Shown here piece after piece: positions 304 through 12,165 of a DNA stretch of 33,471 nucleotides. Position numbers and translations under genes: made by a program. The stretch lies in the IMG/VR virus record IMGVR_UViG_3300025109_000038, positions 1 to 33,471 of that record; one strand, written 5' to 3'. The notes beneath the pieces are model-generated. The model saw only the letters and a list, made by a program, of their open reading frames with translations. It was not told the origin of the DNA and did not search any database. The DNA is from a virus. Numbering within the stretch: position 1 is the stretch's first letter; every line of letters begins with the position of its first letter.

Positions 304-325
304 GTTGTTCTCCTGTTGCCCTAAG

Positions 326-354: not shown

Positions 355-376
355 GTCAGGCAACAAAGATTGTTTG

Positions 377-796
377 TTATCCTGAGTGGAAAGCACCAAG
401 CCTTCCCTTGAGGGTGAAGGGTTCATCCAAGGCAACGAAGCCGTGCTCCCGCAGGGCCGCGTTGCTGTGGAACGGTCGGACCTCTGAGCCGGAAGTCGCC
501 ACGGTGATGTGAGGCACAGCGTTGGCGACCTCGATCCCGGCCTCGCTCAAGCGGGCGTCAGGCTCAACCACGAAGACCTGGATGTCCTCGGTCTCAAGCT
601 TGCCGATGACCTTGAGGTTGACCTCGTGGCCCTCGTTGGCAAGCACAGTATCAGCCGCTCCAGGGGCAGGGCGGAACTCAATGGTCATGTGATCGAGGAA
701 TCGATCAGGCATGGCCCATTCAAAGTGTCCAAGGAGGCCGTCCTTTTCCTCTGCTGTGAGGTCAAGGAAGACGGCAGTGAAGATGATGCTGCTCAT
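377..796 (-). CDS. 2H phosphoesterase-like protein (possible cyclic-nucleotide or RNA-end hydrolase)
   Basis: Encodes 139 aa. Two H-x-T motifs are visible, H36-M-T38 in DHMTIEF and H96-I-T98 in PHITVAT, each flanked by hydrophobic beta-strand-like sequence. This is the signature of the 2H phosphoesterase superfamily, whose members cleave 2',3'-cyclic or 2'-5' phosphodiesters. The size suits single-domain 2H proteins. Known members include tRNA-ligase phosphodiesterase domains and the phage anti-CBASS enzyme Acb1. Which substrate this one uses is inference only; its place beside an antirestriction gene fits a counter-defence role but does not prove it. The start follows an AACAACAACAGGAGCAAC leader. 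A G/C hairpin (823..847) separates it from the upstream ardC-like gene. Confidence 0.65.
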   Translation of the reverse strand: MSSIIFTAVFLDLTAEEKDGLLGHFEWAMPDRFLDHMTIEFRPAPGAADTVLANEGHEVNLKVIGKLETEDIQVFVVEPDARLSEAGIEVANAVPHITVATSGSEVRPFHSNAALREHGFVALDEPFTLKGRLGAFHSG

Positions 797-822
797 GTTG
801 CTCCTGTTGTTGTTGGGTGGTG

Positions 823-847
823 AGGTAGGGGGCTTGGCCCCCCACCT
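823..847 (-). other. Intergenic G/C hairpin between the ardC-like and 2H genes
   Basis: Arms AGGT plus GGGGGC (823..833) pair with GCCCCC plus ACCT (837..847), with one A/C mismatch and a 3-base loop. On the leftward transcript it lies just after the stop of the ardC-like gene and about 25 bases before the next ribosome-binding site. No T tract follows, so it is unlikely to be an intrinsic terminator. An RNA-processing, stability or translational-spacer role is possible. Confidence 0.55.
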
Positions 848-852
848 ATGCT

Positions 853-1821
853 TTACTTGGCTGCCATGGCGGCGTCCTGCTCCTCGGCCTCGCTGCTCAC
901 CCCGGCGTTCTCAAGGATGAGCTTGGCCGCCTTCTCCGCCTGCGATGCGGCGGTGATGATGGCCTTCTTGTCGCCCTTGAGTACCTTGAGCCACGAGGCC
1001 AGGTAGCTGGCGTGGTCGGGCCGGGGCTCGGTGGGCTGGCTGATGCCGAAGTCAGCGCCGAGAAAGGCAGCCGTCAACTCAGCCACAAGCTCCTCGAAGG
1101 CGTAAGCCTCCTCGCCAAACCGCTTGCCGAACTTCCGGTCAAGGCGGTCCTCGTGCCCGGTGCTGTGCCCACACTCATGGGCATCGACCGAGATGAAGGC
1201 AGCCTCATCCTCGAACTGCTCGAAGCACGGAAGCTGGATGCGGTCGTCGCTTGGCGAGTAGTAGGCGCGGTTGCCACCATACGTGACGGGCACCACCTCG
1301 TGCCATGCGTCGAGTACCCGCTTGGCCTCGGCGTAGTTGTCGCCAAGCTGTGAGCCGTCGTGGTCCTCGACCGTGGGGGCAGGACCAGGCGCGTGCTCGC
1401 TGCCCTCCTCCCATTCAATCTGGCAGGCGTTCCAGGCTGGGGTCAGCTTGGGGTATCCGATCTTCTTAGGCTCACCGTCCTTGCCAATGACCACGTTGCC
1501 GCTGGCATCTTTCTTGGGGAACCACAGCCACTTGACGATGCGGACGGATGCCTTCTGACCCTTGCGAACCTGCCCACCCTTGCCCTTGGCTCCCTTGTAG
1601 GTGTGCCACACGTTGGACCAGTACCCGTTCTCCATGGCCGCGAGCCAGCAGAGCAGGACGTTGATGCCGTTGTAGGGGTTGCCGCTGCCACCGCTGATGG
1701 GCCGCAGGCCGGAGCCACCCAGGCCCTTCCACTGAGCACGCCAGGGCGGAGTACCGGCTTCCAGCGCGTCGATGATGGAGTCGGTGATCACTTGGTAGGG
1801 GTCGAACTTCTTCTTGGCCAT
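853..1821 (-). CDS. ardC: ArdC-like antirestriction protein (ssDNA-binding plus zincin domain)
   Basis: Encodes 322 aa. The N-terminal half (about residues 5 to 140) looks like the ArdC N-terminal ssDNA-binding domain: it begins with a YQVITDSIIDALEAG helix and has a PWRAQW segment, the NPYNGIN motif and a GGQVRKGQK segment. The C-terminal half has a zincin active site, H215-E-C-G-H219 with H223, followed by an FEELVAELTAAFLG helix that can supply the third ligand. ArdC proteins are plasmid and phage early proteins that protect incoming DNA from restriction. The start at MAKKKFDPY is chosen over a longer reading because CAACAGGACAAC lies directly upstream. Length and both domains look complete. 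Family assignment is firm; the exact restriction system countered is unknown. Confidence 0.85.
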   Translation of the reverse strand: MAKKKFDPYQVITDSIIDALEAGTPPWRAQWKGLGGSGLRPISGGSGNPYNGINVLLCWLAAMENGYWSNVWHTYKGAKGKGGQVRKGQKASVRIVKWLWFPKKDASGNVVIGKDGEPKKIGYPKLTPAWNACQIEWEEGSEHAPGPAPTVEDHDGSQLGDNYAEAKRVLDAWHEVVPVTYGGNRAYYSPSDDRIQLPCFEQFEDEAAFISVDAHECGHSTGHEDRLDRKFGKRFGEEAYAFEELVAELTAAFLGADFGISQPTEPRPDHASYLASWLKVLKGDKKAIITAASQAEKAAKLILENAGVSSEAEEQDAAMAAK

Positions 1822-1898
1822 GATGTTGTCCTGTTGTTGGTTGCCACACTTATGTAAGTACGGCATGAGGTTAGGCAAGTGGGGGAGTGAAGATTCTT

Positions 1899-2261
1899 TC
1901 AGCCTGTGTATACAATCTCAGCGTTGGCGACGGCTTCGACGGTCCCGCCCTTGATCAGGTTGGCGGACTCACGGCCCCACACGTAGTGAAGCCAGCGACC
2001 ATCGAAGGGGAAGTAGGTCAGGCTGGACCTGACCCGTTCATAGTTGCAGCAAACAGTCCAGGCTGGCGCGTACTCGTCCTGATCGAGAATGTCGCGGTCG
2101 GAGTCTCCCCAGGAGTCGCGGTACCACGGCCCGTAGTGGGCGCGTGCTTCTTGGCTGTCGTACTCGACGCAGCAAGCATCAGCGGGCAGGCCCGCCGCTT
2201 GGGCGTTGGCTCGCCACGCTTCGGCTACTTGCTGGACGGCTTCGGGTATCGGGGTGGTCAT
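1899..2261 (-). CDS. Aromatic-rich acidic protein, unknown function
   Basis: Encodes 120 aa starting MTTPIPEAVQQVAEAW, after the linker CAACAGGACAACGAC. An N-terminal helix is followed by a Trp/Tyr-rich, Asp-rich central part (YGPWYRDSW, DILDQDEYAPAW) with a Cys pair in TVCCNYERV. No membrane segment or known motif is recognised. The composition suggests a small soluble alpha/beta protein that could bind a partner protein. It sits between the zinc-finger/OB gene upstream and the ardC-like gene downstream, in the same leftward run. The aspartate-rich centre could mimic nucleic acid, but that is speculation. Confidence 0.7.
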   Translation of the reverse strand: MTTPIPEAVQQVAEAWRANAQAAGLPADACCVEYDSQEARAHYGPWYRDSWGDSDRDILDQDEYAPAWTVCCNYERVRSSLTYFPFDGRWLHYVWGRESANLIKGGTVEAVANAEIVYTG

Positions 2262-2285
2262 GTCGTTGTCCTGTTGAAGGTGGGT

Positions 2286-2303
2286 GGCCCCCCGAAGGGG
2301 GCC
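2286..2303 (-). other. Hairpin with canonical C(UUCG)G loop upstream of a linker
   Basis: On the leftward transcript, GGCCCCC pairs with GGGGGCC around a UUCG loop closed by C-G, an exceptionally stable RNA tetraloop. It lies between the stop at 2311 and the CAACAGGA linker of the gene starting at 2261. There is no T tract, so it is probably not a terminator. Confidence 0.6.
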
Positions 2304-2310
2304 GGTGAAG

Positions 2311-3714
2311 TCACTGCGCCGGAGTCAGGACGCAGCGGTTCACCTTGGTTTCAGTCACGCCACGGTACTCGCCGTGGCCCTTGATGGTGGCGACCAGGGT
2401 GTAGGTACTACCCACCGTCACCCGCTCGCCGTCGTCGGAGTTGGCCCGCCCGGAGGCGAACCACTTGAGCACGTTGCCATCGGCGTCGGTCATCGAGACC
2501 AACTCGCTGGTGCCATACTCACCATCGAACAGGCGGGTGTCGCTGACCGTGACGGTCAGTGCAGCGTGGGCCTCGGCACCCTTGCGCTTGTCCGCAGCGG
2601 ATAGCTTCCGGCCAATCTTATCACCGGCCCTGCCGATGGCGGCGCTCACCTTAGCGGCAACCTCACGCTCGCGGCGCAGCCGCTCACCCTTGACGTGCCG
2701 CTCGTAGGCAGCGACCGCACTGCACACGATGCCAAGTTCCCGGTAGGCGATGCCACCCAGGGAGCAGGCCACCTTGAGGTTCCAGAGGTAGTCGCTGTCG
2801 GTGTCGTCAGCGATGGCCTCGGTCCACTCGATGATGGTGTCGGCTTGCTCGCGCTCGGCGTCACCCCAGGGGGGCACGAAGCTCAGGCCCTCTTGGTCCC
2901 AAGCTCGACGCTGTTCCTCGTCCTTCGTCTCGGTCAGGGTGCCAAGCACGTGGTCGGCAGTGGCGTGGTAGCCGTACTCACGGGCGTTGCCCCGGCTGGT
3001 CCAGCCGCGAAGCTCTACCGATGCGAGGGTGATGGCGAGCACAGTCCGCACGTCCCAAGCCTTGGCACCACCGGAGCCAGTGCCCCAGTCGTCGTCGATG
3101 AAGTCGCCAAGCTCACGCTCATACTGAGCAGAGCGGAGAATCTCAGCGCCCGTGGCCTCACCCACGTAGTCCTTGAGGCACTGCCGACCGACTTGCTTGC
3201 GCGAGCCGTCGTCGTGCTGGATGACGTAGGTGTCGTTCCGCTTGCGCGCTGTGTTGCAGTGCTCGCATACCGGGCGCGATGTGCGGATGATGGGGTCGAC
3301 CGCAGTACCCTCGAAGCGGGGCGAGGTGCGGACCACGTTGCGGTAGCCGTCCTCGGTGGCGATGTGCTGGATGGCAGCGACGAAGGCCCAGCCATTGAAG
3401 TGGACGGGCTTGGCGACCAGGGTGTACAGCCCGAAGCGGTGCCACTCGATGATGTCGGCCTCGTTGCGCTTGGGCACGGAGAGGTCCGCCACCTTGGTGA
3501 GCACCGGAGGCTCGAAGCCCAGACGGTTGGCCTTGCGGACCAGCTTGTCGAACCGCTCGCGCAGTCGGCCAGCGTTGGCGACGGGCACTCGGATGGCGGT
3601 CTGCTCGGTGCCATCAGCAGCGATGGCGATGTACTCGACGATGCCCAGGCGTGGGACACGGCGCTCGATGGTGCCGGTGTAGTCGCGGGCGGTGATGATC
3701 TTGGTGGTGGTCAT
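2311..3714 (-). CDS. Zinc-finger protein with C-terminal OB-like region, phage/plasmid hypothetical
   Basis: Encodes 467 aa starting MTTTKIITARDYTG. The visible zinc site is C150-x2-C153 (CEHCNTARKRNDTY) followed by GRQCLKDY with C179, a treble-clef-like pattern seen in hypothetical proteins of large phages and plasmids. The middle (about 190 to 380) is helical and charged, with RRAWDQEG, WTEAIADD and a basic segment with KRKGAEAH. The last 80 or so residues look like an OB fold: alternating strands around LFDGEYGTS, GNVLKWFASG and YTLVATIKGHGEYRG, ending in KVNRCVL. Nucleic-acid binding is a reasonable inference; the precise role is not known. Start chosen by the CAACAGGACAACGAC linker. It is the largest gene of the leftward cluster. 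Confidence 0.75.
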   Translation of the reverse strand: MTTTKIITARDYTGTIERRVPRLGIVEYIAIAADGTEQTAIRVPVANAGRLRERFDKLVRKANRLGFEPPVLTKVADLSVPKRNEADIIEWHRFGLYTLVAKPVHFNGWAFVAAIQHIATEDGYRNVVRTSPRFEGTAVDPIIRTSRPVCEHCNTARKRNDTYVIQHDDGSRKQVGRQCLKDYVGEATGAEILRSAQYERELGDFIDDDWGTGSGGAKAWDVRTVLAITLASVELRGWTSRGNAREYGYHATADHVLGTLTETKDEEQRRAWDQEGLSFVPPWGDAEREQADTIIEWTEAIADDTDSDYLWNLKVACSLGGIAYRELGIVCSAVAAYERHVKGERLRREREVAAKVSAAIGRAGDKIGRKLSAADKRKGAEAHAALTVTVSDTRLFDGEYGTSELVSMTDADGNVLKWFASGRANSDDGERVTVGSTYTLVATIKGHGEYRGVTETKVNRCVLTPAQ

Positions 3715-3736
3715 GTCGTTGTCCTGTTGGTGGGGG

Positions 3737-4036
3737 TTACACACACTCGACCGTAACGGTCGATTGAGTCCAGTCGTAGGTCACACTGAAGACCCAGCCG
3801 CCGCCGTCTTGAACCTCGACGGTGGACCACTGCGGGGCCTCGTATGTTCCAGTCCACACAGGGCTGGAGAACTCAAGGCGCGGGCGAATGCTGACGAACA
3901 GGTCGTCCGGCTCTACCTCTGAGAGGCCGGGAGTCTCTGAGTCATCGGCGATAAGCTTGCCGACCCGTCGCACGGCATCGTCTCCAAGCTGTCGCTTGAG
4001 TCGGTCGTAATCGTTGTGTGTTTTGGGTATGGTCAT
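3737..4036 (-). CDS. Small protein, unknown function
   Basis: Encodes 99 aa starting MTIPKTHNDYDRLKRQLG after the linker CCAACAACAGGACAACAAC. The N-terminal third is a charged helix. The acidic middle contains SEVEPDDLFVSIRP, and the C-terminus is beta-rich with Trp, Thr and Val (WVFSVTYDW, TVTVECV). No known motif. It ends 22 bases before the linker-start of the zinc-finger gene, consistent with cotranscription. Confidence 0.7.
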   Translation of the reverse strand: MTIPKTHNDYDRLKRQLGDDAVRRVGKLIADDSETPGLSEVEPDDLFVSIRPRLEFSSPVWTGTYEAPQWSTVEVQDGGGWVFSVTYDWTQSTVTVECV

Positions 4037-4082
4037 GTTGTTGTCCTGTTGTTGGTTGGTTGGGGTTGGTCTTCTGGTGGTT

Positions 4083-4099
4083 GGGGGGAGCCGCCCCCC
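4083..4099 (-). other. G6/C6 hairpin downstream of the empty gene slot
   Basis: GGGGGG (4083..4088) and CCCCCC (4094..4099) are separated by 5 bases. With the hairpin at 4143..4158 it brackets the ATG-stop element at 4115..4120. Confidence 0.5.
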
Positions 4100-4114
4100 G
4101 GCGGTTGGTGTCGT

Positions 4115-4120
4115 TCACAT
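4115..4120 (-). other. Linker followed by ATG-TGA (empty cassette or start-stop mini-ORF)
   Basis: On the minus strand the leader CACCTCAACAGGAGACTGAC is followed by ATG and immediately by TGA. The same 20-base leader occurs before the real gene starting at 4587. A full ribosome-binding linker with nothing to translate looks like the scar of a deleted gene. Alternatively it is a start-stop element that stalls ribosomes and regulates the downstream gene at 4036. Confidence 0.6.
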
Positions 4121-4142
4121 GTCAGTCTCCTGTTGAGGTGGG

Positions 4143-4158
4143 GGGGGCTTGCGCCCCC
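4143..4158 (-). other. Hairpin with GCAA (GNRA) tetraloop
   Basis: On the leftward transcript, GGGGGC pairs with GCCCCC around a GCAA loop, a stable GNRA tetraloop. It lies between the gene ending at 4174 and the linker of the empty slot at 4115..4120, the same position as the hairpins at 823..847 and 2286..2303. Confidence 0.55.
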
Positions 4159-4173
4159 GGTGTGGGTGGTTTG

Positions 4174-4587
4174 CTATCGAATCGTTGAGGTGTCTACGCC
4201 GAACACAATCTTCACCTCTTCGGTGTTGCGCTTGATGCACGCCTCTGCCTGCTCAATGTAGAACTCACCCTTGCACCACCGCTTCCTTTCAGCCGCGTTT
4301 TCGGACCCATCGTAGCGCGACCAGGAGAATGCCCGCATCTCGCCTGGACCGTCGTGCCATACCTCAAGTTGGTCGAACCCCTCAAGGTGATACACGCTCG
4401 ACACCTTAGGAGAACCGAAGGATACGGCGAGCCGTTCGATCTTCCGTAGTACAGCGGCGTGTTCGTTAGGGTTGAGGTTGCTGCAGTCGAACTCTTCTGC
4501 AAGTCGTCGAAGTTTTGCAATCCGTTTCGGCGTGATGCCGCCGTTGATCTCAACGATTATGTCAACGCCAGTGTATGTGATTGTCAT
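4174..4587 (-). CDS. Small mixed alpha/beta protein, unknown function
   Basis: Encodes 137 aa starting MTITYTGVDIIVEING. After a short beta N-terminus comes a helix with RIAKLRRLAEEFDCSN and a second helix AAVLRKIERLAVSFG, then a beta segment (SSVYHLEGFDQLEVWHDG) and a charged C-terminal helix containing EFYIEQAEACIKRN. No recognised motif or membrane segment. Its start lies 2 bases beyond the stop of the upstream gene (4589), and its linker is inside that gene, so the two are probably translationally coupled. Confidence 0.7.
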   Translation of the reverse strand: MTITYTGVDIIVEINGGITPKRIAKLRRLAEEFDCSNLNPNEHAAVLRKIERLAVSFGSPKVSSVYHLEGFDQLEVWHDGPGEMRAFSWSRYDGSENAAERKRWCKGEFYIEQAEACIKRNTEEVKIVFGVDTSTIR

Positions 4588-4588
4588 G

Positions 4589-4966
4589 TCAGTCTCCTGT
4601 TGAGGTGGGGGGAAGGTAGACGTCGTTCAGTCGGCGTGCCTCGCTTTCGCTTTGCATGGCACGGTCAGCGAGCGTGTAGAGTCGAAGGGTGTGGGGCTCG
4701 CCCAGTGCAGCGAGGATGACGCCGTCCTGGTTGGCGATGGTGTCGACGTGGCGCACCTCGAAGTCGGTGACGTAGTCGGACCAGGCAGCCAGCCATCGGC
4801 GGTTCCGCTTGCACCTGACGAGCACGCGGCCCCTGGTGTGCTCGAACTCAGCGTACCGCCACCCGGCAGCACTCAGGTCGGTGCTCAGGGTATCGTCGTC
4901 GAGGTAGAAGGCGGGCAGTAGTGAGGCCATCACGCCGCCTTCTCGCTTGTTGGTGAGGTAGTACAT
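4589..4966 (-). CDS. Small acidic protein, unknown function
   Basis: Encodes 125 aa starting MYYLTNKREGG. An internal Met at residue 13 is possible, but the upstream ATG has the expected CAACAGGAGCTTC leader. The sequence is beta-rich with several Trp and Arg residues (RGRVLVRCKRNRRWLAAW) and an alternating DFEVRHVDTI segment, then a helix near LADRAMQSESEARRLNDV. No family recognised. Its last codons contain the ribosome-binding linker of the next gene, which starts 2 bases away. Confidence 0.7.
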   Translation of the reverse strand: MYYLTNKREGGVMASLLPAFYLDDDTLSTDLSAAGWRYAEFEHTRGRVLVRCKRNRRWLAAWSDYVTDFEVRHVDTIANQDGVILAALGEPHTLRLYTLADRAMQSESEARRLNDVYLPPTSTGD

Positions 4967-4980
4967 GAAGCTCCTGTTGT

Positions 4981-5145
4981 TTATTGGGAGAGGGGTTCAG
5001 GGCAGAAGTCGCAGGTCACATCGTCGTCGCAGTCGTGCGCCGTCAGGTACTCGTCGACGGGAAGCATCTGCTCGCCGTGCTTCTCGCAGGTGGTGACCGT
5101 GTCAGTCTCACCCGTCCGCTTGCAGGTCATTATCCAGTAGGTCAT
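4981..5145 (-). CDS. 54-aa Cys/His-rich protein, possible zinc ribbon
   Basis: Encodes 54 aa beginning MTYWIMTCKRTG and ending PLSQ. It carries possible metal ligands: C8, C20 with H23 (CEKH), H37 with C39, and C45-x2-C48 (CDFC). This spacing suggests one small zinc-binding fold; that is inference. The start has AACAACAGGAGCCTGACACC upstream, matching the linker family, and the promoter at 5175..5203 lies directly before it. It is the promoter-proximal gene of the first leftward array, so it would be transcribed first. The rightward reading of the same bases has no such signals. Confidence 0.7.
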   Translation of the reverse strand: MTYWIMTCKRTGETDTVTTCEKHGEQMLPVDEYLTAHDCDDDVTCDFCPEPLSQ

Positions 5146-5174
5146 GGTGTCAGGCTCCTGTTGTTGCTACCCTA

Positions 5175-5203
5175 CATTTAGTCACGGGTAGGTGGATGGT
5201 CAA
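5175..5203 (-). promoter_or_regulatory. Sigma70-type promoter driving the first leftward array
   Basis: On the minus strand, TTGACC (5198..5203) and TAAATG (5175..5180) are 17 bases apart. Flanks match the promoter at 326..354 (CCTGACTTGACCATC, CTACCCGT). The -10 box is weaker than TATAAT. It lies about 30 bases upstream of the gene starting at 5145, at the head of the leftward run from 5145 down to 377. Confidence 0.65.
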
Positions 5204-5560
5204 GTCAGGCACAAGGCCAAAGGCGGTCATAATGTGTCTGCTTCGGCATGAAAGTGGCCCCCAGTCCCTTGACTTGCCAAGGTTTAGGTCATGCCGAAGG
5301 GCTGGTAAAGATGCCCCGTTGAACCTGGGTATTCAAGCTTAGGACTATCAGTCCCTACCTACTCTTTGAAAGTAGAAGGGGGAGTAATAGAGGAGAAGGG
5401 GGTACAGAAGACCCCCAGGTGGGGACAAGAATGTTTCCTGAGACAAGGGGGACAGGTAGGGACACCCAGGATATTGCCGGTTGGCCCTGGGCTATTCAGT
5501 GGCCCACAGGTAGGGACACCCCCCTGCTTTGTCCCTTCACGTGTCAAGGGTTGGGCTCAC
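5204..5560. other. Gene-free control region between leftward arrays A and B
   Basis: I find no convincing gene in this stretch. It contains an inverted repeat of 11 bases, CTTCGGCATGA (5241..5251) and TCATGCCGAAG (5289..5299), enclosing a smaller CCTTG/CAAGG stem (5267..5282). The 16-base direct repeat ACAGGTAGGGACACCC occurs at 5452..5467 and 5506..5521. An inverted copy of its core, GTCCCTACCT, lies at about 5350..5359, and a relaxed copy near 5416. Such spaced direct and inverted copies suggest protein-binding sites (operator or iteron-like). Confidence 0.5.
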
Positions 5561-5569
5561 TTAGTACAT
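5561..5569 (-). other. Linker B followed by ATG-TAC-TAA (empty cassette)
   Basis: After the TAA of the gene ending at 5589, the minus strand reads ACCCTCACCCCTGGGCCATC, then ATG TAC TAA. This is the family B linker with a weakened ribosome-binding core (GGG in place of GGAG) followed by a two-codon ORF. It sits at the downstream end of array B and resembles the ATG-TGA slot in array A. Confidence 0.55.
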
Positions 5570-5588
5570 GATGGCCCAGGGGTGAGGG

Positions 5589-5813
5589 TTATCGGCTGAT
5601 GAGGACGAACACGGGAACGGTGAGGCCCATCACGCGAACCTGACGCTCGCATACTGTGGGCTTCTCCCCCCGTACTGCCATCTCGATTACAGTTGATGCC
5701 AGGTCGTCGAGGTCCAGTGACATCATCACGAAGCCGCTCCGCTGGCCGCTGATCTCGACATGGCTGGCAACGGTGCAGACGGTGCAGACGGGGGTGGGTT
5801 GGGTGGTGGACAT
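5589..5813 (-). CDS. Small protein with CxxC, unknown function
   Basis: Encodes 74 aa starting MSTTQPTPVCTVCTVASH. The CTVC pair is encoded over a short tandem nucleotide repeat (cggtgcagac). C-terminal half: an acidic segment (SLDLDDLASTVIEMAV) and a hydrophobic end (VMGLTVPVFVLISR). It could bind metal or form a disulfide, but only one CxxC and one nearby His are visible. Start fixed by the CCTGGAGCCCATC linker. Last full gene of array B. Confidence 0.65.
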   Translation of the reverse strand: MSTTQPTPVCTVCTVASHVEISGQRSGFVMMSLDLDDLASTVIEMAVRGEKPTVCERQVRVMGLTVPVFVLISR

Positions 5814-5834
5814 GATGGGCTCCAGGGTCAGGGT

Positions 5835-6077
5835 TCAGTAGTCGTAGCCGTCAATCGGCCCGTCTTCGTATGAGTCAAGGTCGGAGAGTGAGAGGTCCGA
5901 GACCGCCTCGACTATCTCAGCCTTGCCTGCGCGGCGCTCCACAGTCTCGTGTGCCTTCTCGACACGCGCCGCCGTCCGAGCCCAGCGACCCGACCGACCA
6001 CCGCCGTGACGACGACCCTCATACTTCTTGCCGTTCGCGTTGCCGCCTCTGCGGTGGGTGCCTTTGGCTCTGTTCAT
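5835..6077 (-). CDS. Small bipolar (basic then acidic) protein
   Basis: Encodes 80 aa starting MNRAKGTHRRGGNANGKK. The first half is strongly basic (Arg, Lys, Gly, with GGGRSGRWARTAARVEKAH), the second acidic (SDLSLSDLDSYEDGPIDGYDY). The basic half could bind nucleic acid; the acidic tail resembles protein-binding tails. No family recognised. Linker B precedes the ATG. Confidence 0.65.
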   Translation of the reverse strand: MNRAKGTHRRGGNANGKKYEGRRHGGGRSGRWARTAARVEKAHETVERRAGKAEIVEAVSDLSLSDLDSYEDGPIDGYDY

Positions 6078-6097
6078 GATGGGCTCCAGGGTCAGGG

Positions 6098-6196
6098 TTA
6101 CTGTCGCTCGATGCTGTGGAAGACCATCGGCGCGATGAGAAACGCGAGGGGAATGTAGCAGGCGAGCGGGGCAAGGTTGGTGATGAGGTCAATCAC
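6098..6196 (-). CDS. 32-aa single-span membrane peptide, GTG start
   Basis: Reads MIDLITNLAPLACYIPLAFL followed by IAPMVFHSIERQ. Residues about 8 to 26 form one hydrophobic span with no charge. The start is GTG, supported by the linker CACCCCTGGAGCCATC directly before it, at the same spacing as the other array B genes. The stop is followed at once by the next linker. Very small phage membrane peptides often act on host membranes or on other phages, but the role here is unknown. Confidence 0.6.
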   Translation of the reverse strand: MIDLITNLAPLACYIPLAFLIAPMVFHSIERQ

Positions 6197-6217
6197 GATG
6201 GCTCCAGGGGTGAGGGT

Positions 6218-6442
6218 TCAGAGGAGGTTCTGCCAGTTGTTCGTTCGGGTCATGAATGACTCAAGCTGTTGCAGTAGTCCATTCGCGTGCATCAGCTTGG
6301 CGTCGAGCAGGCGATTCTCTTTCTCCAGTTGGCGCACTTTGGCCAAAAGCTCATCGCGTTCTTTCCGAAACGTTGCGGATGCTGCCCTGTGGTAGTCGTT
6401 CCATAAGGCGAGGCGTTGGTGCAGATTTTCGATGGTGGGCAT
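6218..6442 (-). CDS. Small coiled-coil protein
   Basis: Encodes 74 aa starting MPTIENLHQRLALWNDYH. A long helix with leucine heptads runs from about residue 20 to 65 (RKERDELLAKVRQLEKENR, then LLDAKLMHANGLLQQLESF), a clear coiled coil. Start chosen by the CCTGGAGCCCATC linker rather than a reading 47 codons longer, which would overlap the upstream gene. Likely dimeric; possibly a regulator or an inhibitor of a host complex, but nothing shows which. Confidence 0.7.
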   Translation of the reverse strand: MPTIENLHQRLALWNDYHRAASATFRKERDELLAKVRQLEKENRLLDAKLMHANGLLQQLESFMTRTNNWQNLL

Positions 6443-6464
6443 GATGGGCTCCAGGGTGATGGGT

Positions 6465-6644
6465 TCAGCGGGACCAGGCGATACGCCCGAACCGCGAGAG
6501 GATGTGGGCACGGCTCCAGACTGACCAGACCTTGCGGTCGAGGCCAGACACCTCGTCCAGCCAGACCCAGAGGTCATCCTCAAGGGTGCCGCCTTGGGCG
6601 ACCTTGCCGGTGCGGGTGTTCACGACGTAGAGGCGGTACTTCAT
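6465..6644 (-). CDS. 59-aa Trp-rich protein, unknown function
   Basis: Encodes 59 aa starting MKYRLYVVNTRTGKV and ending FGRIAWSR. It has a beta N-terminus, an acidic Trp-rich middle (LEDDLWVWLDEVSG) and a basic Trp-rich end (DRKVWSVWSRAHIL). The N-terminal pattern (MKYRLYVVNT) resembles those of the small genes at 7302 (MKYTFVIFTD) and 7615 (MNTYIVFWTY), so the three may be diverged relatives. Linker B precedes its ATG and its stop merges with the next linker. Confidence 0.65.
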   Translation of the reverse strand: MKYRLYVVNTRTGKVAQGGTLEDDLWVWLDEVSGLDRKVWSVWSRAHILSRFGRIAWSR

Positions 6645-6667
6645 GATGGGCTCCAGGGTGTGAGGGT

Positions 6668-6904
6668 TTAGGCGAGGGTGTATTCCCCAGCAGTACCAGT
6701 GAGAAGGAAGGAAGCGGCTGTGTCAGCATCCTGTAGGGATGCCGGTGAGCCGTCGCTGTTGACCAGCAGGTAGACTCGGCGGGTGTCCCGCCAGCCGGGG
6801 ACGTTCACCGCATCGACTGCAAGGTAGGTCTGCTGGGGGTCGAGGACGATGCCTGTACCGAGTAGCTTGAAGGCTTGGGTTGGCTTGACTTTGAAGGGGG
6901 ACAT
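6668..6904 (-). CDS. Small beta-rich protein, unknown function
   Basis: Encodes 78 aa starting MSPFKVKPTQAFKLLGTG. Beta-rich with TYLAVDAVNVPGW and RRVYLLVNSDGS, and a Ser/Thr/Ala-rich end. No motif recognised. The start is set by a diverged linker (CCGGAGCCCACT) and avoids a longer reading through the palindromic region upstream. First gene of array B, immediately below a possible operator at 6924..6942. Confidence 0.65.
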   Translation of the reverse strand: MSPFKVKPTQAFKLLGTGIVLDPQQTYLAVDAVNVPGWRDTRRVYLLVNSDGSPASLQDADTAASFLLTGTAGEYTLA

Positions 6905-6923
6905 AGTGGGCTCCGGGGTGGAC

Positions 6924-6942
6924 TGTATGGCGTAGCCATACA
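6924..6942. promoter_or_regulatory. Palindrome, candidate operator at the head of array B
   Basis: TGTATGGC (6924..6931) and GCCATACA (6935..6942) are perfect 8-base inverted arms around GTA. A second stem, ACAATC/GATTGT (6940..6945, 6953..6958), overlaps it. On the minus strand a TTTACA-like box (about 6955..6960) with poor -10 spacing lies here, so a repressor-controlled promoter is possible but unproven. Confidence 0.4.
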
Positions 6943-7206
6943 ATCGGTGAGGGATTGTAAAGAGGTAAGCGGGGAGACGCCCGCCGCACCTCGCTCGCCC
7001 CGTTCCCACAGGGTGACGCATCCGGCGATATGCCAGGGGCAAGGCGGGATATGGGCGGCTGAGTCGGTGAGGTTTAGGGCTGCCTGTGGGTCATCGGCTG
7101 GGCCGAATCGGGCGGTGCCTGACCACTGCGGGGCTGCCTTTGCCCCACCCGCTGGCCGATATCCCAGGGGGGAGCGGCACAACGGGGGAGCGGTGAGGGT
7201 TGGACG
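6943..7206. other. Gene-free stretch with degenerate linker-like repeats
   Basis: No convincing gene. CGGTGAGG occurs at 6945..6952, 7065..7072 and 7191..7198, about 120 bases apart. Read leftward, CCTCACCG resembles the first part of linker B. Related CCTGGgATATCGgCC and CCTGGcATATCGcCG segments follow the two upstream copies. These could be decayed cassettes. Minus-strand readings across it lack ribosome-binding sites. Confidence 0.35.
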
Positions 7207-7302
7207 TTAGCTACGTGGCAGCCGGGTGGTGCGTTCGCGGGGGACGGACCCGGAGCGGACCCGCCCGTCGTAGTCGGTGAAGATGACGAAGGTGTACTTC
7301 AT
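7207..7302 (-). CDS. 31-aa basic peptide, possible truncated relative of neighbours
   Basis: Reads MKYTFVIFTDYDGRVRSGS followed by VPRERTTRLPRS. The leader CAACAGCAGGATTCAAC is a diverged family A linker. The N-terminal strand resembles those of the 7430..7615 and 6465..6644 products, but the protein stops early, so it may be a truncated copy or a genuine micropeptide. The coding potential is small; the call rests mainly on the leader and the similarity of its start. Confidence 0.45.
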   Translation of the reverse strand: MKYTFVIFTDYDGRVRSGSVPRERTTRLPRS

Positions 7303-7344
7303 GTTGAATCCTGCTGTTGGGGTTGACGTGTAAAGGGTTCGCCT

Positions 7345-7371
7345 CAACAGCGGGGCTCACCCCTCCTGTTG
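7345..7371 (-). other. Hairpin burying a linker-like ribosome-binding site
   Basis: CAACAG (7345..7350) and CTGTTG (7366..7371) pair, with an inner GGGG/CCCC stem around a 4-base loop. On the leftward strand the hairpin contains CAACAGGAGGGG, a family A linker core, which the stem would hide. It lies between the genes at 7430 and 7302. Confidence 0.4.
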
Positions 7372-7429
7372 CACAGGGGGAGCCCGGCTGGAGGCTATGT
7401 GCGGCGGGGGATACGCTCCCCCGTGGCGG

Positions 7430-7615
7430 TTAGTCGGCGCGCTCGCCGTTGTGGACGAGCCCCCCCCCTACCTCGAAGACGAGGAAGCGAACGCCTGGCC
7501 GGGAGTGGAACGGGAAGGCCTTTCGGATGGCGTCCTGTGGGTCGGCGGCCTTGACCGTGCGCGGGTCGTCGGCGGAGTTGGCGCTGTAGGTCCAGAAGAC
7601 GATGTATGTGTTCAT
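7430..7615 (-). CDS. 61-aa small alpha/beta protein
   Basis: Encodes 61 aa: MNTYIVFWTYSANSADDP, then RTVKAADPQDAIRKAF, then RPGVRFLVFEVGG. The strand-loop-helix-strand order and the A-x2-A-x2-AI helix resemble small phage proteins of unknown role. The ATG overlaps the TGA of the upstream gene (ATGA at 7612..7615), with GAGGTGGCAGC as ribosome-binding site inside that gene, so the pair is translationally coupled. Confidence 0.7.
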   Translation of the reverse strand: MNTYIVFWTYSANSADDPRTVKAADPQDAIRKAFPFHSRPGVRFLVFEVGGGLVHNGERAD

Positions 7616-7875
7616 GCTGCCACCTCGGTCCACTGGCGGATGGCTTCGAGTGCGCCCCAGGTTTGGCCCAGCGGGGTGACCTCGACACGGATGTAGTCGG
7701 CTGTGTCGATCTCCAGGGTCGGGATGGCTGCGAGCAGGATGGGCTTGCCGTGTGGGATGTAGCCCTGCGATGCCAGTCGAGAGGCGACCTTGAGGGCAGC
7801 GTGCTGGGGGGATACGGCATCGGCGGTGGATTCGATTGCGAAGGGGATGGAGCCGGTGTAGACGGTGTAGTTCAT
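7612..7875 (-). CDS. Small protein, unknown function
   Basis: Encodes 87 aa starting MNYTVYTGSIPFAIES. A helix (PQHAALKVASRLASQG) lies between strands (KPILLAAIPTLEID, YIRVEVTPLG), a plausible alpha/beta fold. The leader CCAACAGGACCCAAC belongs to linker family A, though this gene is upstream of array B. It is the first leftward gene after the structured 7.9 to 8.9 kb gap. No promoter box could be pinned down for it. Confidence 0.7.
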   Translation of the reverse strand: MNYTVYTGSIPFAIESTADAVSPQHAALKVASRLASQGYIPHGKPILLAAIPTLEIDTADYIRVEVTPLGQTWGALEAIRQWTEVAA

Positions 7876-8880
7876 GTTGGGTCCTGTTGGTTGGTTTCGG
7901 CCCTGCTGGGCCATCATCAGGGGGCGAGCATCACGCCCCGACCATTCGTCCCCCCGCCTACCTGCACTGGCGGCGGGGGCCGCTTATCTCACCTCACCGG
8001 GCCATGGCCTCGGTGTGGGGTCGCTTCCGCTACGCGGTAAGGCTGCGACTTGCCTGCCTCTCAGTCTATTACTGTCCGCCTGAGAACTGCGGACCACAGG
8101 TGACTCAATCCATCGGAGAGCCGGGCCGTTCCTCTGGCGCGGGGGGCGAACCCCCCACCCTGTTTGCCAGAGCAGTGAGACCGGCGCGGCTTGCGCGTTG
8201 CCGGGTGTTTCCACTGGACGGGCCTCTCTTTCGCTCAGGTGCGGTCTACCGGATCGCCCCGTTCACTTGCTCACCTTCGAGCCCCACCATGGTGGGCCAC
8301 TCTCGAAGGGCGTTTCGGATATCGGGGGTCCCCCCCCGCGGTACCGTCGCGCTGTTATTGCGGTCGAACTTGATTGTTCCGGTGGCTCGGCTCGCCCCTA
8401 TATATAGGGGGTCATCGCTTCGCTGTTTGCACCCTGCTACTCAGGTTGCCGTCCATCTCTTCATCCGCTGCCATCGTTTCGGCTGTCGTCGGGGTCGACT
8501 CAGTGTCACCATGCTTTGCTGCATCTCCCCCTCTTTGGCGGGGCAGGGGCTGGAGTGGCCTATCTCCGGGGGCGGGGCTCCCGACGACCTCTTCAGCCTG
8601 CTGGCAGTAGTCTTGTCTCTTCACTGAGTCTCACGACTCCGGGGGTATCCCCCGATGGGTGAGCGGTTCGCAAACGCGGTGTCAAGGAGCGGGGTGTCAG
8701 TGGCTCAGTGCCGCCGACAACCAGAAGTGAATCACCGATTGCCCGGCGGCAACCACTCATTTTTATCAGACCCCAAAATAGCACCCCCCAATCTGGGGAT
8801 TGTCACCGTTGAACCTTGTTTTTCGTCGACCAAAAAAAAATCACCATCAGTGGTCAGGCATGCGGTCAGGCAAAGAAGGG
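7876..8880. other. Structured gene-free region of about 1 kb
   Basis: No reading frame here has a ribosome-binding site or protein-like composition. Inverted repeats are dense: GGGGCG/CGCCCC (7921..7939), CCCCCGCC/GGCGGGGG (7951..7979), a CACCGGGCC stem (7995..8015), GTCCGC/GCGGAC (8074..8094), CCGGC/GCCGG (8181..8204) and G6-CGAA-C6 (8141..8156). There is also CCTTCGAG/CTCGAAGG enclosing a CCCACCATGGTGGG palindrome (8274..8309), the palindrome CCCCTATATATAGGGG (8395..8410) and CGGGGG/CCCCCG (8640..8654). A T9 run on the minus strand lies at about 8827..8836. It may encode a large structured RNA or be a replication/packaging site. Confidence 0.45.
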
Positions 8881-8909
8881 TTGACCCCCCCTTCCCTCGT
8901 GTCTACTGT
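8881..8909 (+). promoter_or_regulatory. Promoter producing a leaderless mRNA for the 8916 gene
   Basis: TTGACC (8881..8886), 17 bases, TACTGT (8904..8909), then 6 bases and ATG. Transcription would begin at or within a base or two of the A of the start codon. No Shine-Dalgarno sequence precedes the ATG. The same geometry occurs at 17564..17592. Confidence 0.6.
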
Positions 8910-8915
8910 CTTGGC

Positions 8916-9317
8916 ATGGAAGCAGTCCTCGCCTTCTCGAACCTCTCCGCAGCCGCCCCCCGGCAGCGGGCCCGGTGTGTCCGCACCGGTCGGTTCGTCG
9001 CATGGTCGCGGGCTGCCGCCCTTCGTTCCCCTGCCGCCCCTGCGGTGGTGGTCCTGGCCCCCGCCCCTGCGGTGGTGGTCGAGACCCCCGCCCCCGTGGT
9101 GGTGGTCCCCGTGGTGGGCACCGCCCCCGTGGTGGGCACCGCGTCTCCTCTCCGCGCCATCGCCCGCGTGGCCTCCACCGTGGCCCGCGTGGCCAGCCGG
9201 GTGGGTGGCTGGGTGGCCAGCCTGGCCCGCCGGGTCGTGGCGGTCATCGCCCCCCCCGTGGGTGGTCGGGATCAGGAAGAACGCGCGAGCACCCCGACCA
9301 GGGGGTGGACCGTGTGA
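8916..9317 (+). CDS. Ala/Val/Pro-rich low-complexity protein, leaderless
   Basis: Encodes 133 aa starting MEAVLAFSNLSAAAPRQ. After a basic segment (RARCVRTGRFVAWSRAAALR) comes a Pro-Ala-Val repeat region (residues about 45 to 80, with AVVVLAPAPAVVVETPAP) and then helices rich in Ala, Val and Arg (ARVASTVARVASRVGGWVAS, LARRVVAVIAPPVGG). It could be amphipathic or membrane-associated. The leftward frame over the same bases gives a His/Gly-rich string that looks artefactual. The start is chosen because a TTGACC-N17-TACTGT promoter ends 6 bases upstream. Function unknown; it is the only gene between the two structured regions. Confidence 0.5.
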   Translation: MEAVLAFSNLSAAAPRQRARCVRTGRFVAWSRAAALRSPAAPAVVVLAPAPAVVVETPAPVVVVPVVGTAPVVGTASPLRAIARVASTVARVASRVGGWVASLARRVVAVIAPPVGGRDQEERASTPTRGWTV

Positions 9318-9619
9318 CGCCCACCGCCAGCGGTCCACCGGACCACCGAGCCACCCTCAGTCCCCCCTGGGGACTGGGAGGAAGGCCCCCCCCTCTGCTC
9401 TGACGGCGGCGGGATGGGGGTGCTGGGGCTGGCCGGAGCCCCAGGGGCTCCGGGGGGCGCTGCGGCAAGCCGCAGCGCGGCGCAGCGCGGCGACACCCCC
9501 CCCTGTTCTAAAAGATATATAGATATATATAGATATATATATGTGTGTGTGGTGAATATAGATGTTGCGCAATACCGTAAAGATTGTTCGTTGAAAGTGG
9601 CTCTTTTGGTGTTGGGGGC
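9318..9619. other. Palindromes plus AT-rich microsatellite, origin-like region
   Basis: No gene seen. Strong inverted repeats: GGTCC/GGACC (9332..9344), CAGTCCCC/GGGGACTG (9358..9376), CCGGAGCCCC/GGGGCTCCGG with one central base (9433..9453), and a 10-base-arm repeat centred on AA with core GCTGCGGC/GCCGCAGC (9457..9478). GCAGCGCGGC is tandemly repeated at 9472..9491. An AT microsatellite of GATATATA units, ending in GTGTGTGT, follows at 9511..9552. Strong stems beside an easily melted tract are typical of origins; no T tracts mark the stems as terminators. Confidence 0.45.
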
Positions 9620-9648
9620 TTGAACCTTTGCTGCTTGGGGTATAGGAT
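9620..9648 (+). promoter_or_regulatory. Candidate promoter for the 9670 gene
   Basis: TTGAAC (9620..9625), 17 bases, TAGGAT (9643..9648). The boxes match four or five of six positions each. The start GTG at 9670 would be about 15 bases from the predicted transcript start. Confidence 0.45.
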
Positions 9649-9669
9649 GTCGGTCTTGGGGGTTACAGC

Positions 9670-10641
9670 GTGAGGGAGTTGGCAGACAACATCTGTTTGG
9701 GGCGGTTCTACCCAAGAGAGGGTGTTCCGGGTGTTTTATCGGTCCCAGTGGAAGATGAAGATGTAATTGCGAAGTACAGGGCCGTAGCGTCGATAGGTCC
9801 ACGTGATAGTGTGAGCTTCTTTCGGTTGACGGTGGTTCCAGACAAAGCGGGTAGCTGGCTGTTGTCTGGTGATGTTGTTTGCGTCTACGGGGAATTGGAT
9901 GAGGTGTTGCTGGATGTGATTCGGCCAAACGCGACATCTACGTACATCTGGAACAATAAGTGGTCGAGGGTAGATGAGGTCGATCTTGAGCGTACTCGTG
10001 GTGAGTCGATTGAGTACCATAAGTGGTCTTTTTCCCGTACAGACACTCAGTTGACGATGGTTGACCCATATGGTCGCGCTGCTGTCATACGCGTGCAGCC
10101 CAAGCGGCTTACTCGTCTATTCAAGAGCTTTTCGTCCATTGTTCCACGCACCGGGCATGAGATTCAGCGCCATTTACGACTAAGCCCTGAAGTTCAGCGT
10201 GCTGGTGAGTTTGTACTGCGTTTATTCCATGGGCAGATGCTAAAAGCAGGGCCAAGTGTGGATGGCTCGCTGTACACCAAGTTTCGCAGCATGGCTCAGT
10301 CTATGTACGACCAGAGTTATCGATGTGCGCATCTGTTGCCTGATGCTGATTGTCTGCGCATCCATTTCAGCAACTACAGCCATAAGCGAAAGCCTTGTTG
10401 GGACTTCATTGACTTATGCAAGTCGATCTATGCTCAGGATCAGAAAGTGCTACCAAGGCCGCTTCGTTTGATGGCAGCGAAGCACTACCACATCAAATGG
10501 GTGCGTTTGACGCCTAAGGAGTGGGAGGATTGCCTTGTTTTCTGGTTTGAGCGTCATGACGGTCCTTGGAATGAGCCATTTGGCATGTCCATGATTGATT
10601 TGTCTGATGTTGGCTACAAACGCTGGGCGTACAAGAACTAA
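9670..10641 (+). CDS. 323-aa protein, unknown function (first gene of the rightward region)
   Basis: Encodes 323 aa with a GTG start (MRELADNICLGRFYPREG), the ribosome-binding site being only a weak GGGGG. The N-terminal half is beta-rich and acidic (VPVEDEDVIAKYRAVASIG, SWLLSGDVVCVYGELDEV). The C-terminal half is helical and basic, rich in His, Trp and Cys (SYRCAHLLPDADCLRIHF, HKRKPCWDFIDLCKSIYAQ). No family recognised. It ends in a TAATG overlap with the next gene. Being grouped with a RusA-like resolvase makes a replication or recombination role plausible, but unproven. Codons often end in T, unlike the leftward genes. Confidence 0.65.
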   Translation: MRELADNICLGRFYPREGVPGVLSVPVEDEDVIAKYRAVASIGPRDSVSFFRLTVVPDKAGSWLLSGDVVCVYGELDEVLLDVIRPNATSTYIWNNKWSRVDEVDLERTRGESIEYHKWSFSRTDTQLTMVDPYGRAAVIRVQPKRLTRLFKSFSSIVPRTGHEIQRHLRLSPEVQRAGEFVLRLFHGQMLKAGPSVDGSLYTKFRSMAQSMYDQSYRCAHLLPDADCLRIHFSNYSHKRKPCWDFIDLCKSIYAQDQKVLPRPLRLMAAKHYHIKWVRLTPKEWEDCLVFWFERHDGPWNEPFGMSMIDLSDVGYKRWAYKN

Positions 10642-10961
10642 TGGAAGTTTTAGCTCGTCGTGCTCAGCATCAGCTACGGATGGTGTTGGGCGAGTGGTAT
10701 TCGTGGCTATCGAGCCATTCCTTGCGTGAAATGGACTGGATGCAGGTTCCTTGGTGGGCAAAGCAGCTTCCTGGCCGACTTGACATACCTTGGGCTCTAC
10801 ACGACCTGAATGTTTACTACGACAACCAGTTCATGGTTAAAAGGCTGTACATCATCGTAGATGAAGCCTACCTGAACGCAAAAGACCTTGATGGTGTGCC
10901 CGACATGACTAAGTTGCATGAGACAGTCACAGCGCTATACGAAGCGAGCCAAAATGCCTAA
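10641..10961 (+). CDS. 106-aa protein, unknown function
   Basis: Encodes 106 aa starting MEVLARRAQHQLRMVLGEW. Helical with many Trp, Tyr and Leu residues (WYSWLSSHSLREMDWMQVPW). Its second half has LNVYYDNQFMVKRLYIIVDEAYL and an acidic helix. Starts in a TAATG overlap with the gene before and ends overlapping the RusA-like start by 8 bases, so translation of the three is coupled. No motif recognised. Confidence 0.65.
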   Translation: MEVLARRAQHQLRMVLGEWYSWLSSHSLREMDWMQVPWWAKQLPGRLDIPWALHDLNVYYDNQFMVKRLYIIVDEAYLNAKDLDGVPDMTKLHETVTALYEASQNA

Positions 10962-11475
10962 TTTCCCATTCTTTGCAGTGATTCCTGGTGCTCCGATAGG
11001 AAAGGGGCGTGGGCGGGCTGCTGTTGTTGGTGGGCATGCGCGTATCTACACGCCGAAGCGTACAGCGGAGTGGGAGCGTGGAACGGCGTTTGTTTTACGT
11101 TCGCTTTGGAAGAGCACGCCGTTTGACGGGCCTGTAGAGGTTCGATTGCTTGCAGCAGCGCCAAGACCGAAGCGATTGATGCGTAAGAAGGATCCTGGTG
11201 GGCTTATCTGGAAGCCTAAGACTCCAGATGCAGACAACATAGAGAAATGTACATGGGATGCGATTGTGATGGCAGGAATCATCAGGGATGACTGCTTGGT
11301 AGTTAAGAGCGAATGTCAGGACTGCTATGCAGAGAAAGACGGCATTCCTCGCATTGAGATTATGATTAGACCGATAAACTGTGAGCCGAAGTCCTTCATT
11401 CCGAAGGGCCAGGCATTAAGAGGGGTGAATAGTGATTTGGATGATGATGGTGATTGGGATGTCTCATGCTTTTAG
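10954..11475 (+). CDS. rusA: RusA-like Holliday junction resolvase
   Basis: Encodes 173 aa starting MPNFPFFAVIPGAPIGKGRG. The RusA signature is clear: KPDxDN-type motif KTPDADNIEK with D92, D94, N95 and K98, then a WDAIVMAGIIRDDCLVV segment with D102, D112 and D113, and K119. RusA enzymes are small Mg-dependent dimers that cut four-way DNA junctions; in phages they resolve branched DNA before packaging. A basic region (about 69 to 79, APRPKRLMRKK) should contact DNA. The C-terminal extension after residue 145 ends acidic (NSDLDDDGDWDV). The longer upstream reading was rejected because it lies inside the previous gene without a ribosome-binding site. Confidence 0.85.
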   Translation: MPNFPFFAVIPGAPIGKGRGRAAVVGGHARIYTPKRTAEWERGTAFVLRSLWKSTPFDGPVEVRLLAAAPRPKRLMRKKDPGGLIWKPKTPDADNIEKCTWDAIVMAGIIRDDCLVVKSECQDCYAEKDGIPRIEIMIRPINCEPKSFIPKGQALRGVNSDLDDDGDWDVSCF

Positions 11476-11914
11476 CATCGAGCAGATTAACTACAGATGG
11501 CTAAGCCAGGCCAAGCAGAAGTCGATTGAGGCTGGTTGTGACCCGTTTTATGTAGACGAACTGTACAGGGGCGCTTCTCGTTCTCATTTTGAGGTCGATT
11601 GTCGTTGGTCAGACAAGCGGGCGTACATTTGGTGTCGTTCTGGTGCTGGCGATGACTTTGGCATCGAGTGCGGGTATTTGACGCGCTACCACGAGGCTGG
11701 GATGATGGACTTTGGTTTTGAGCGTGAGTTGCGCTACGAGGCGGCTGGCCGCAAGTGCTTGGTGCGCGATCTTGTTGAGGACTCGCATGGCGTGCATGAT
11801 CTTAGCGATTGGGCGGTTTACCGCTTCCGCTGTGCTGAAGACAGGTCTGCACGTGAGCGCTACGCACGTTGTTGGGTTGCCAGGGGTCGTCTTCACTGCG
11901 AGTTCTTGCAATAG
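11459..11914 (+). CDS. Cys-rich protein, unknown function
   Basis: Encodes 151 aa starting MSHAFSIEQINYRWLSQ, overlapping the end of the RusA-like gene by 17 bases. An alternative start 9 codons upstream gives a Met-rich, unlikely N-terminus. Contains seven cysteines, mostly beside aromatic or charged residues (FEVDCRWSDKRAYIWCRSG, GIECGYLTRYH, RYARCWVARGRLHCEFLQ), so metal binding is possible, but no standard CxxC finger is seen. It is the last gene before the terminator at 11974. Confidence 0.6.
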   Translation: MSHAFSIEQINYRWLSQAKQKSIEAGCDPFYVDELYRGASRSHFEVDCRWSDKRAYIWCRSGAGDDFGIECGYLTRYHEAGMMDFGFERELRYEAAGRKCLVRDLVEDSHGVHDLSDWAVYRFRCAEDRSARERYARCWVARGRLHCEFLQ

Positions 11915-11973
11915 CAGTCGTTCGCGACTATGTTTGTTGTGAGGCGTCATGTCCTCGTTTATTGTTGCTTAGG

Positions 11974-12008
11974 CCCGTCAGCTTCCTGTTGCTGGCGGGT
12001 CTTTTGTT
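11974..12008 (+). terminator. Rho-independent terminator ending the RusA operon
   Basis: CCCGTCAGC (11974..11982) pairs with GCTGGCGGG (11991..11999) over 9 positions, including one G-U, around an 8-base loop, then TCTTTTGTTT. A small TTCG hairpin (11916..11929) lies upstream, right after the last stop codon. Confidence 0.8.
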
Positions 12009-12013
12009 TGGAT

Positions 12014-12042
12014 TTGACCGGCCATGCATACAAGAGTAGTGT
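12014..12042 (+). promoter_or_regulatory. Promoter of a putative small RNA
   Basis: TTGACC (12014..12019), 17 bases, TAGTGT (12037..12042). It lies directly after one terminator and about 83 bases before another, with no gene between, so its transcript would be short. It belongs to the same TTGACC-N17-TAnnnT set as the other promoters in this window. Confidence 0.6.
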
Positions 12043-12048
12043 GACTTT

Positions 12049-12156
12049 GTCTGTAGGTGAGTTTTGCAGTCCCCGTGTAAGTGTTTCATCTATAGGCGAG
12101 TCAAGTTGTTGACTACATACTTAGCCACTGGGGGCATTTTGCCCTCAGTGGTTTTT
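12049..12156 (+). ncRNA. Putative phage small RNA of about 108 nt
   Basis: Bounded by the promoter at 12014..12042 and the terminator at 12125..12156. It contains two copies of CTRTAGGYGAGT (about 12050..12062 and 12089..12101), a GTCAA/TTGAC stem with GTTG loop (12100..12113), and the terminal hairpin. No ORF with a ribosome-binding site is present. It could act in trans as an sRNA or be a prematurely terminated leader of the structural operon. Ends are predicted to within a few bases. Confidence 0.5.
12125..12156 (+). terminator. Strong rho-independent terminator
   Basis: CCACTGGGGGC (12125..12135) pairs with GCCCTCAGTGG (12141..12151) over 11 positions, including one G-U, around ATTTT, followed by TTTTT. 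This is the best intrinsic terminator in the window and separates the short RNA from the structural operon. Confidence 0.85.
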
Positions 12157-12165
12157 GCTTGCGCC

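Follow-up and report, generated by a model that had tools for sequence, protein, structure and literature searches.

The repeat described here is best read as the translation-initiation leader of an operon of early accessory genes and, at the same time, as a place where such genes are gained and lost, a reading to which we give a probability of roughly 70%. It lies in an IMG/VR virus record of 33.5 kb, the whole of which (33,471 nt) is hereafter called the window. Six consecutive minus-strand ORFs at 5589-6904 (78, 59, 74, 32, 80 and 74 aa) are each found behind a CCTGGAGCCCATCATG-type leader. The features of this array and its flanks are given below, identities being those with the related contig G003:

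6976..7226, minus strand, conserved noncoding flank on the upstream side of the array (identity with G003 87%)
6924..6942, minus strand, 19-nt palindrome TGTATGGCTACGCCATACA just upstream of the array's first gene, from the sequence and the hairpin scan; possible operator or hairpin
6905..6917, minus strand, leader copy 1, diverged: CCCGGAGCCCACT-ATG
6668..6904, minus strand, ORF of 78 aa without known family
6645..6667, minus strand, leader copy 2: stop codon TAA, then ACCCTCACACCCTGGAGCCCATC-ATG
6465..6644, minus strand, ORF of 59 aa without known family
6443..6464, minus strand, leader copy 3: stop codon TGA, then ACCCATCACCCTGGAGCCCATC-ATG
6218..6442, minus strand, ORF of 74 aa, coiled-coil-like by eye, without significant family
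6197..6217, minus strand, leader copy 4: stop codon TGA, then ACCCTCACCCCTGGAGCCATC-GTG
6098..6196, minus strand, ORF of 32 aa, hydrophobic
6078..6097, minus strand, leader copy 5: stop codon TAA, then CCCTGACCCTGGAGCCCATC-ATG
5835..6077, minus strand, ORF of 80 aa, N-terminal part basic; its last 20 aa are common to a different gene in contig G026
5814..5834, minus strand, leader copy 6: stop codon TGA, then ACCCTGACCCTGGAGCCCATC-ATG
5589..5813, minus strand, ORF of 74 aa without known family
5570..5588, minus strand, orphan leader CCCTCACCCCTGG-GCCATC
5561..5569, minus strand, ATG TAC TAA, a start without a gene behind it
5155..5519, minus strand, conserved noncoding flank on the downstream side of the array (identity with G003 83%); holds the likely promoter of the next operon
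5175..5203, minus strand, likely promoter of the neighbouring operon, TTGACC-17-TAAATG, picked by eye and absent from the promoter-scan list; conserved in G003

Before the six ORFs stand four exact leader copies, one copy with 3 mismatches and one with a gap, CCCTGGAGCCATC-GTG; the gapped copy precedes the 32-aa ORF at 6196 and brings the leader to 6/6 ORFs, as the preliminary description had claimed. Matches to the 16-mer at ≤3 mismatches number 5 (the ungapped copies) and lie at 5811-6917, all of them on the minus strand, compared with a mean of 0.51 and a maximum of 3 in 100 dinucleotide shuffles. That description had stop codons running into the leader in most genes; in fact, the stop codon is joined directly to the leader at all five internal junctions and again after the last gene. 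Stop-to-start gaps within the array are 23, 22, 21, 20 and 21 nt, with 19 nt to the orphan copy at 5570-5588, a seventh, gene-less leader that copies the leader at 6196, minus one base of the core, and is followed by ATG TAC TAA.

In each leader a Shine-Dalgarno core, GGAG, is separated from the start codon by a spacer of 6 nt (5 nt in one variant); ahead of the core stand a few conserved bases, the first of them at the preceding stop. The four exact copies agree completely from -15 to the ATG and fall to background level right after the start codon, which identifies the repeat as a leader and not as the edge of a repeated gene. Since every gene starts from a leader copy, the unit is leader plus ORF plus stop, with no other DNA. 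The six ORFs are probably translated, with one start per leader. Local RNA folding predicts a partly paired GGAG core and, given that folding does not leave the Shine-Dalgarno core open, accessibility is not used as an argument here. A promoter scan of the array returned no promoter-like site, and a hairpin scan found no stem-loop or inverted repeat at array leaders 2-6, only the 19-nt palindrome ahead of the first gene.

The six encoded proteins (32-80 aa) share no mutual similarity by blastp, none of them matches a Pfam or PHROGs family with a meaningful score, and full-length relatives of them are absent from the other fetched records. The preliminary description had also placed two arrays with two different leaders side by side, and the neighbouring (first) array does carry a different leader, CAACAGGAnnnnnnATG, of which at least 8 well-matched copies are found in the window and its continuation. 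A full copy of that leader also stands without a gene at 4115-4136 (4120), followed by ATG TGA and with GC hairpins nearby. Within the neighbouring array, positions 853-1821 hold an ArdC-type anti-restriction gene (ArdcN and zincin peptidase domains) that is conserved across the group, its leader differing among the window, G003 and G010. The protein encoded at 377-796 has two HxT-type motifs and a weak tRNA-ligase phosphodiesterase match and may be a 2H phosphoesterase; some anti-CBASS proteins have this fold. A near-consensus sigma-70 promoter (TTGACC-17-TATAAT) lies at 325-360, ahead of the gene at 303, and the 33-nt stretch that holds it is 85% identical to the promoter region at 5179-5211.

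Structural genes occupy the plus strand in the right-hand part of the window (terminase 18171-19760, capsid 24497-25555) and the short early genes occupy the minus strand below ~7.9 kb. GC content is 59-66% in positions 1-10000 and 48-58% in 10001-33471, a contrast between the early left and the right part that suggests different origins or codon pressures. A capsid protein search returned 32 related contigs, several of them 72-75 kb long, and the array-bearing virus belongs to an uncultured tailed phage group with genomes of roughly 73 kb. Relatives are IMG/VR contigs throughout, with genes called by a simple gene caller. Contig G001 overlaps the window at 99.95% identity over 4069 bases and continues the same genome; it encodes RecT and a YqaJ-type exonuclease, and a RusA resolvase is encoded in the window itself. 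The closest relatives having the array locus are G002 and G003, near-identical and effectively one lineage, whose capsid protein is 95% identical to that of the window; for G015 the figure is 80%. A near-identity search of a phage collection gave no match to the window, and the capsid protein found no relative among bacterial genomes in a search for the host.

Two further regions of this genome stand out. Contig L082, which continues it, contains an ORF of 3751 codons at 1863-13118. Window positions 7880-9200 are GC-rich and without convincing genes, with blocks 78-95% conserved in G003 and G010; an Rfam scan of the early region, this stretch included, returned no family, and it is possibly a structured RNA or an origin region.

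Comparison with relatives shows what is kept at the array locus. In G002 and G003 the leader is retained between the same conserved noncoding flanks, with two different genes in place of the six of the window. The G003 leaders at this locus are CCTGGAGTCCACC-ATG and TAA-CCCTGGAGCCCACC-ATG, the TAA of the first gene being fused to the second leader, and leader-type sites in this lineage read CCTGGAGCCCACCATG, CCTGGAGTCCACCATG and ACAGGAGCCCATCATG (two copies). At least 8 early genes of G015 have related, CYGGAGCAA-type leaders, several of them fused to TAA, TGA or TAG. The near-same form at the same locus is confined to G002/G003 and the related form occurs elsewhere. Leader and place are thus conserved while genes change. 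Leader bases outside GGAG drift between close relatives (CCCATC, CCCACC, CAATC, CAAAC) and are nearly uniform within each genome.

In IMG/VR the exact 16-mer occurs in 24 contigs, in a single copy per stretch and mostly as in-frame coding sequence for LEPIM, and the pattern read backwards gives 0 matches; accordingly, no repeated linker was found outside the group. A longer pattern, ACCCTSACCCTGGAGCC, gave 15 single hits, and a search with the conserved-flank pattern retrieved only G002/G003 and two unrelated contigs. With 24 single-copy, mostly coding matches, the exact 16-mer is not a mobile linker of wide occurrence.

Shared DNA gives way to unrelated DNA at a start or stop codon next to a leader in several genome pairs. 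G003 and G015 have in common a 31-aa gene (MGTLQDRYDNYVRCMIDLGQPYVDFDTWLNR, 90% identity), with different leaders and different downstream genes. A 34-nt hairpin-plus-leader precedes a 56-aa gene in G027 and an unrelated 27-aa gene in G026, where the ortholog of the 56-aa gene is preceded by another leader. Between the window and G003, the shared segment around gene g3714 runs from that gene's start codon to just past the start codon of the next gene, and the next genes are unrelated; g3714 and the ArdC gene stand in opposite order in the two. At the neighbouring operon, promoter and leader are near-identical between the window and G003 as far as the Shine-Dalgarno bases; the first genes that follow are unrelated.

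Of the 205 alignment ends counted over all pairs, 106 are in gene junctions, where local random positions would put 27. This enrichment was judged by the local control and not by a uniform background, which overstated the effect because it included gene-poor stretches. Phage breakpoints at gene boundaries are common, since only such recombinants survive, and part of the excess is thus expected from the survival of clean junctions alone and from fast intergenic divergence. The excess speaks for exchange at leaders but does not show them to be its cause. The leader thus marks the site of early-gene exchange.

Leader repetition was compared among phages. With one gene caller used for every genome, leader pairs alike at 13/16 bases make up 7.6% in the early region of the window, 1.4% in the SAS phage Anaya (see below), 0.6% in T7 and 0% in lambda, a Streptomyces phage, the early region of a Roseobacter phage and the window's own structural genes. 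Neighbouring genes share leaders in 30 pairs against 9.8 expected by shuffled order, a number reached in 0 of 2000 shuffles, and this neighbour effect persists without consensus-like GGAGGTG leaders. Leader identity is also higher within genomes than between them. Such patterns fit local copying or homogenisation of leaders.

Other shared leader forms were seen in the group. In the neighbouring array and in relatives, the leader of many early genes is directly preceded by a GC hairpin whose tetraloop is UUCG or GCAA (GGGGCTTCGGCCCC, GGGGGCGCAAGCCCCC). Hairpin and leader together look like a composite unit, one that is common to genomes in front of unrelated genes. A further shared form, GGAGGTGCCAAGTG (often GGCAGGAGGTGCCAAGTG), recurs ahead of several genes in G003, G010 and the genome of the window; it reaches into the end of the upstream gene, whose last residues in the window (KAGGAK-stop) it encodes. 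The sites are:

Window 2261-2310 and 4121-4165; L131 (G015) 7735-7765, 8100-8133 and 8735-8766; arrays of L095 (G026) and L097 (G027): hairpin-leader sites
Window 1-25; early genes of L119; L087 1387-1698; L085 13979-14270: GGAGGTGCCAAGTG leader sites

Start-Associated Sequences (SAS) of Cluster K mycobacteriophages (Pope et al. 2011, PMC3203893) resemble the array leader as short, conserved, asymmetric repeats at the ribosome-binding position, directly upstream of start codons, confined to the non-structural half and placed before genes whose families differ from relative to relative; GGAGCCC occurs in both. Here, 6/6 array copies end at a start codon, all leader matches fall at 5.8-6.9 kb with none among the structural genes, and G003 and G015 have the leader or its related form before unrelated genes. 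The 13-bp SAS consensus GGGATAGGAGCCC has no match in the window at ≤2 mismatches, and at 3 mismatches it has 5 matches, none of them at the leaders and fewer than the 9.9 expected by chance. Membership in SAS by consensus was rejected on these 0 matches at ≤2 mismatches. Unlike SAS, the array leader starts at the preceding stop, and several leader classes coexist in blocks; the ESAS, an imperfect paired 17-bp inverted repeat upstream of SAS, has no such hairpin counterpart at array leaders 2-6. A 2025 study states that SAS function still needs experimental verification (PMC12699233).

Cluster EF Microbacterium phages have a SAS-like motif, GGGAAAGGACCCC (PMC7302621), which is likewise an unusually conserved ribosome-binding-site motif before several genes per genome with a sequence private to its group. 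It differs in sequence and in its link to a weakly conserved upstream ESAS element, and the passages of PMC7302621 drawn on here do not describe gene turnover behind the motif. For regulatory repeats tied to gene shuffling, the nearest precedent is the PeSL promoter/stem-loop cassettes of T4-like phages (Arbiol 2010, Comeau 2014; cited in PMC4503421), which share with the array leader a repeated regulatory element between small accessory genes that is linked to gene shuffling between relatives. PeSL join an early promoter to a stem-loop, whereas array leaders 2-6 are ribosome-binding sites without promoter or stem-loop; in the neighbouring array and in relatives a tetraloop hairpin often precedes the leader, and no joined promoter was seen. 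Because the SAS consensus is unmatched and the PeSL promoter and stem-loop are absent, we regard the array leader as a variant of a motif known from other phages.

The main rival to the translation-leader account is that the leader is the binding site of a phage-encoded translational regulator or small RNA controlling the whole operon, the regulator being what keeps the extra identity. RegA controls many early T4 messages in this manner, and the identity of the leader does reach beyond Shine-Dalgarno needs, with operons of one genome differing in leader class (CCTGGAGCCCATC, CAACAGGAnnnnnn, GGAGGTGAGTG); for SAS, too, binding by a product of host or phage has been proposed as a possibility (PMC3203893). 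Copying nevertheless fits mildly better with the drift of non-core bases between relatives and their near uniformity within genomes, and no candidate regulator was identified, which leaves this explanation rather unlikely in our estimation. A plain convergence of ribosome-binding sites on a host preference, with no shared history, would draw on a core that is standard Shine-Dalgarno and on the part of the group's leaders (GGAGGTGAGTG) that comes near the full consensus. We hold it very unlikely: the structural genes of the same genome and lambda lack such likeness and T7 has very little, the identity covers non-Shine-Dalgarno bases and bases beside the stop codon, and the likeness is concentrated between neighbours even without consensus-like leaders.

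Leader-plus-ORF units, a locus whose genes differ between genomes and two leaders without a gene (5570 and 4120) are what one would also see if the leader were a recombination site for an integrase-like enzyme, as attC is in the site-specific gene cassettes of integrons. The array leaders, however, have no inverted repeat save the palindrome ahead of the first gene, and among the 20 larger proteins tested there is no tyrosine or serine recombinase, RecT and YqaJ being found instead; site-specific cassettes are highly improbable on these grounds. The tandem arrangement and the identical leaders could also stem from tandem gene duplication, if old copies had diverged in their coding parts and retained the leader. 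This is scarcely credible for six proteins that differ in length and composition and retain no residual similarity, with leader identity that ends exactly at the start codon and relatives that have other genes behind the leader; duplication was rejected on the blastp result for the six proteins.

The preliminary description had itself named homologous duplicates and a linker absent from relatives as outcomes that would count against it, and neither was found: the genes are unrelated, the leader is present at the same locus in G003 with other genes, and gene content changes between strains at the leaders. Its "two separately amplified cassette families" was not borne out in that wording, the leader being what is repeated, not the genes, and being first of all a ribosome-binding site. 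Host-takeover or counter-defence, which it suggested as the role of the genes, would be a conjecture for this array: its six proteins belong to no known family, and the ArdC anti-restriction gene lies in the neighbouring one.

Early regions of phages are full of tiny genes that come and go among strains, and it is an old question how an incoming gene is accommodated with the operon left intact. Under the translation-leader reading, the early operon would be transcribed leftward and consist of short accessory genes that each start from their own copy of the same leader. Extending from the previous stop to the next start, this leader makes the boundary clean on both sides, which would let genes be gained and lost with their neighbours undisturbed. 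It would supply a newcomer gene with ready-made translation, and gain or loss at this place would presumably be harmless, tolerated or even favoured. New leader copies may arise by local copying, as suggested by the likeness of neighbours and by copies that are more alike within genomes than between them. The least certain step is that RecT/YqaJ of the phage would use the short leader repeats as homologous stretches in annealing-type recombination. We consider it doubtful, and put it forward tentatively, that besides their ribosome-binding role the leaders are short homologies by which this annealing system inserts and removes early genes. If this were true, each early operon would be an open, self-renewing cassette array, with its leader class homogenised within a genome and drifting between genomes.

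Short early genes are often missed, and the leader offers a means of locating them by sequence; the unrelated genes behind the same leader make leader-guided exchange testable. SAS-like elements are hereby described in a phage group outside the actinobacteriophage clusters for which descriptions of them were found. In this group, the leader locus looks like a plug-in point for swapping early genes.
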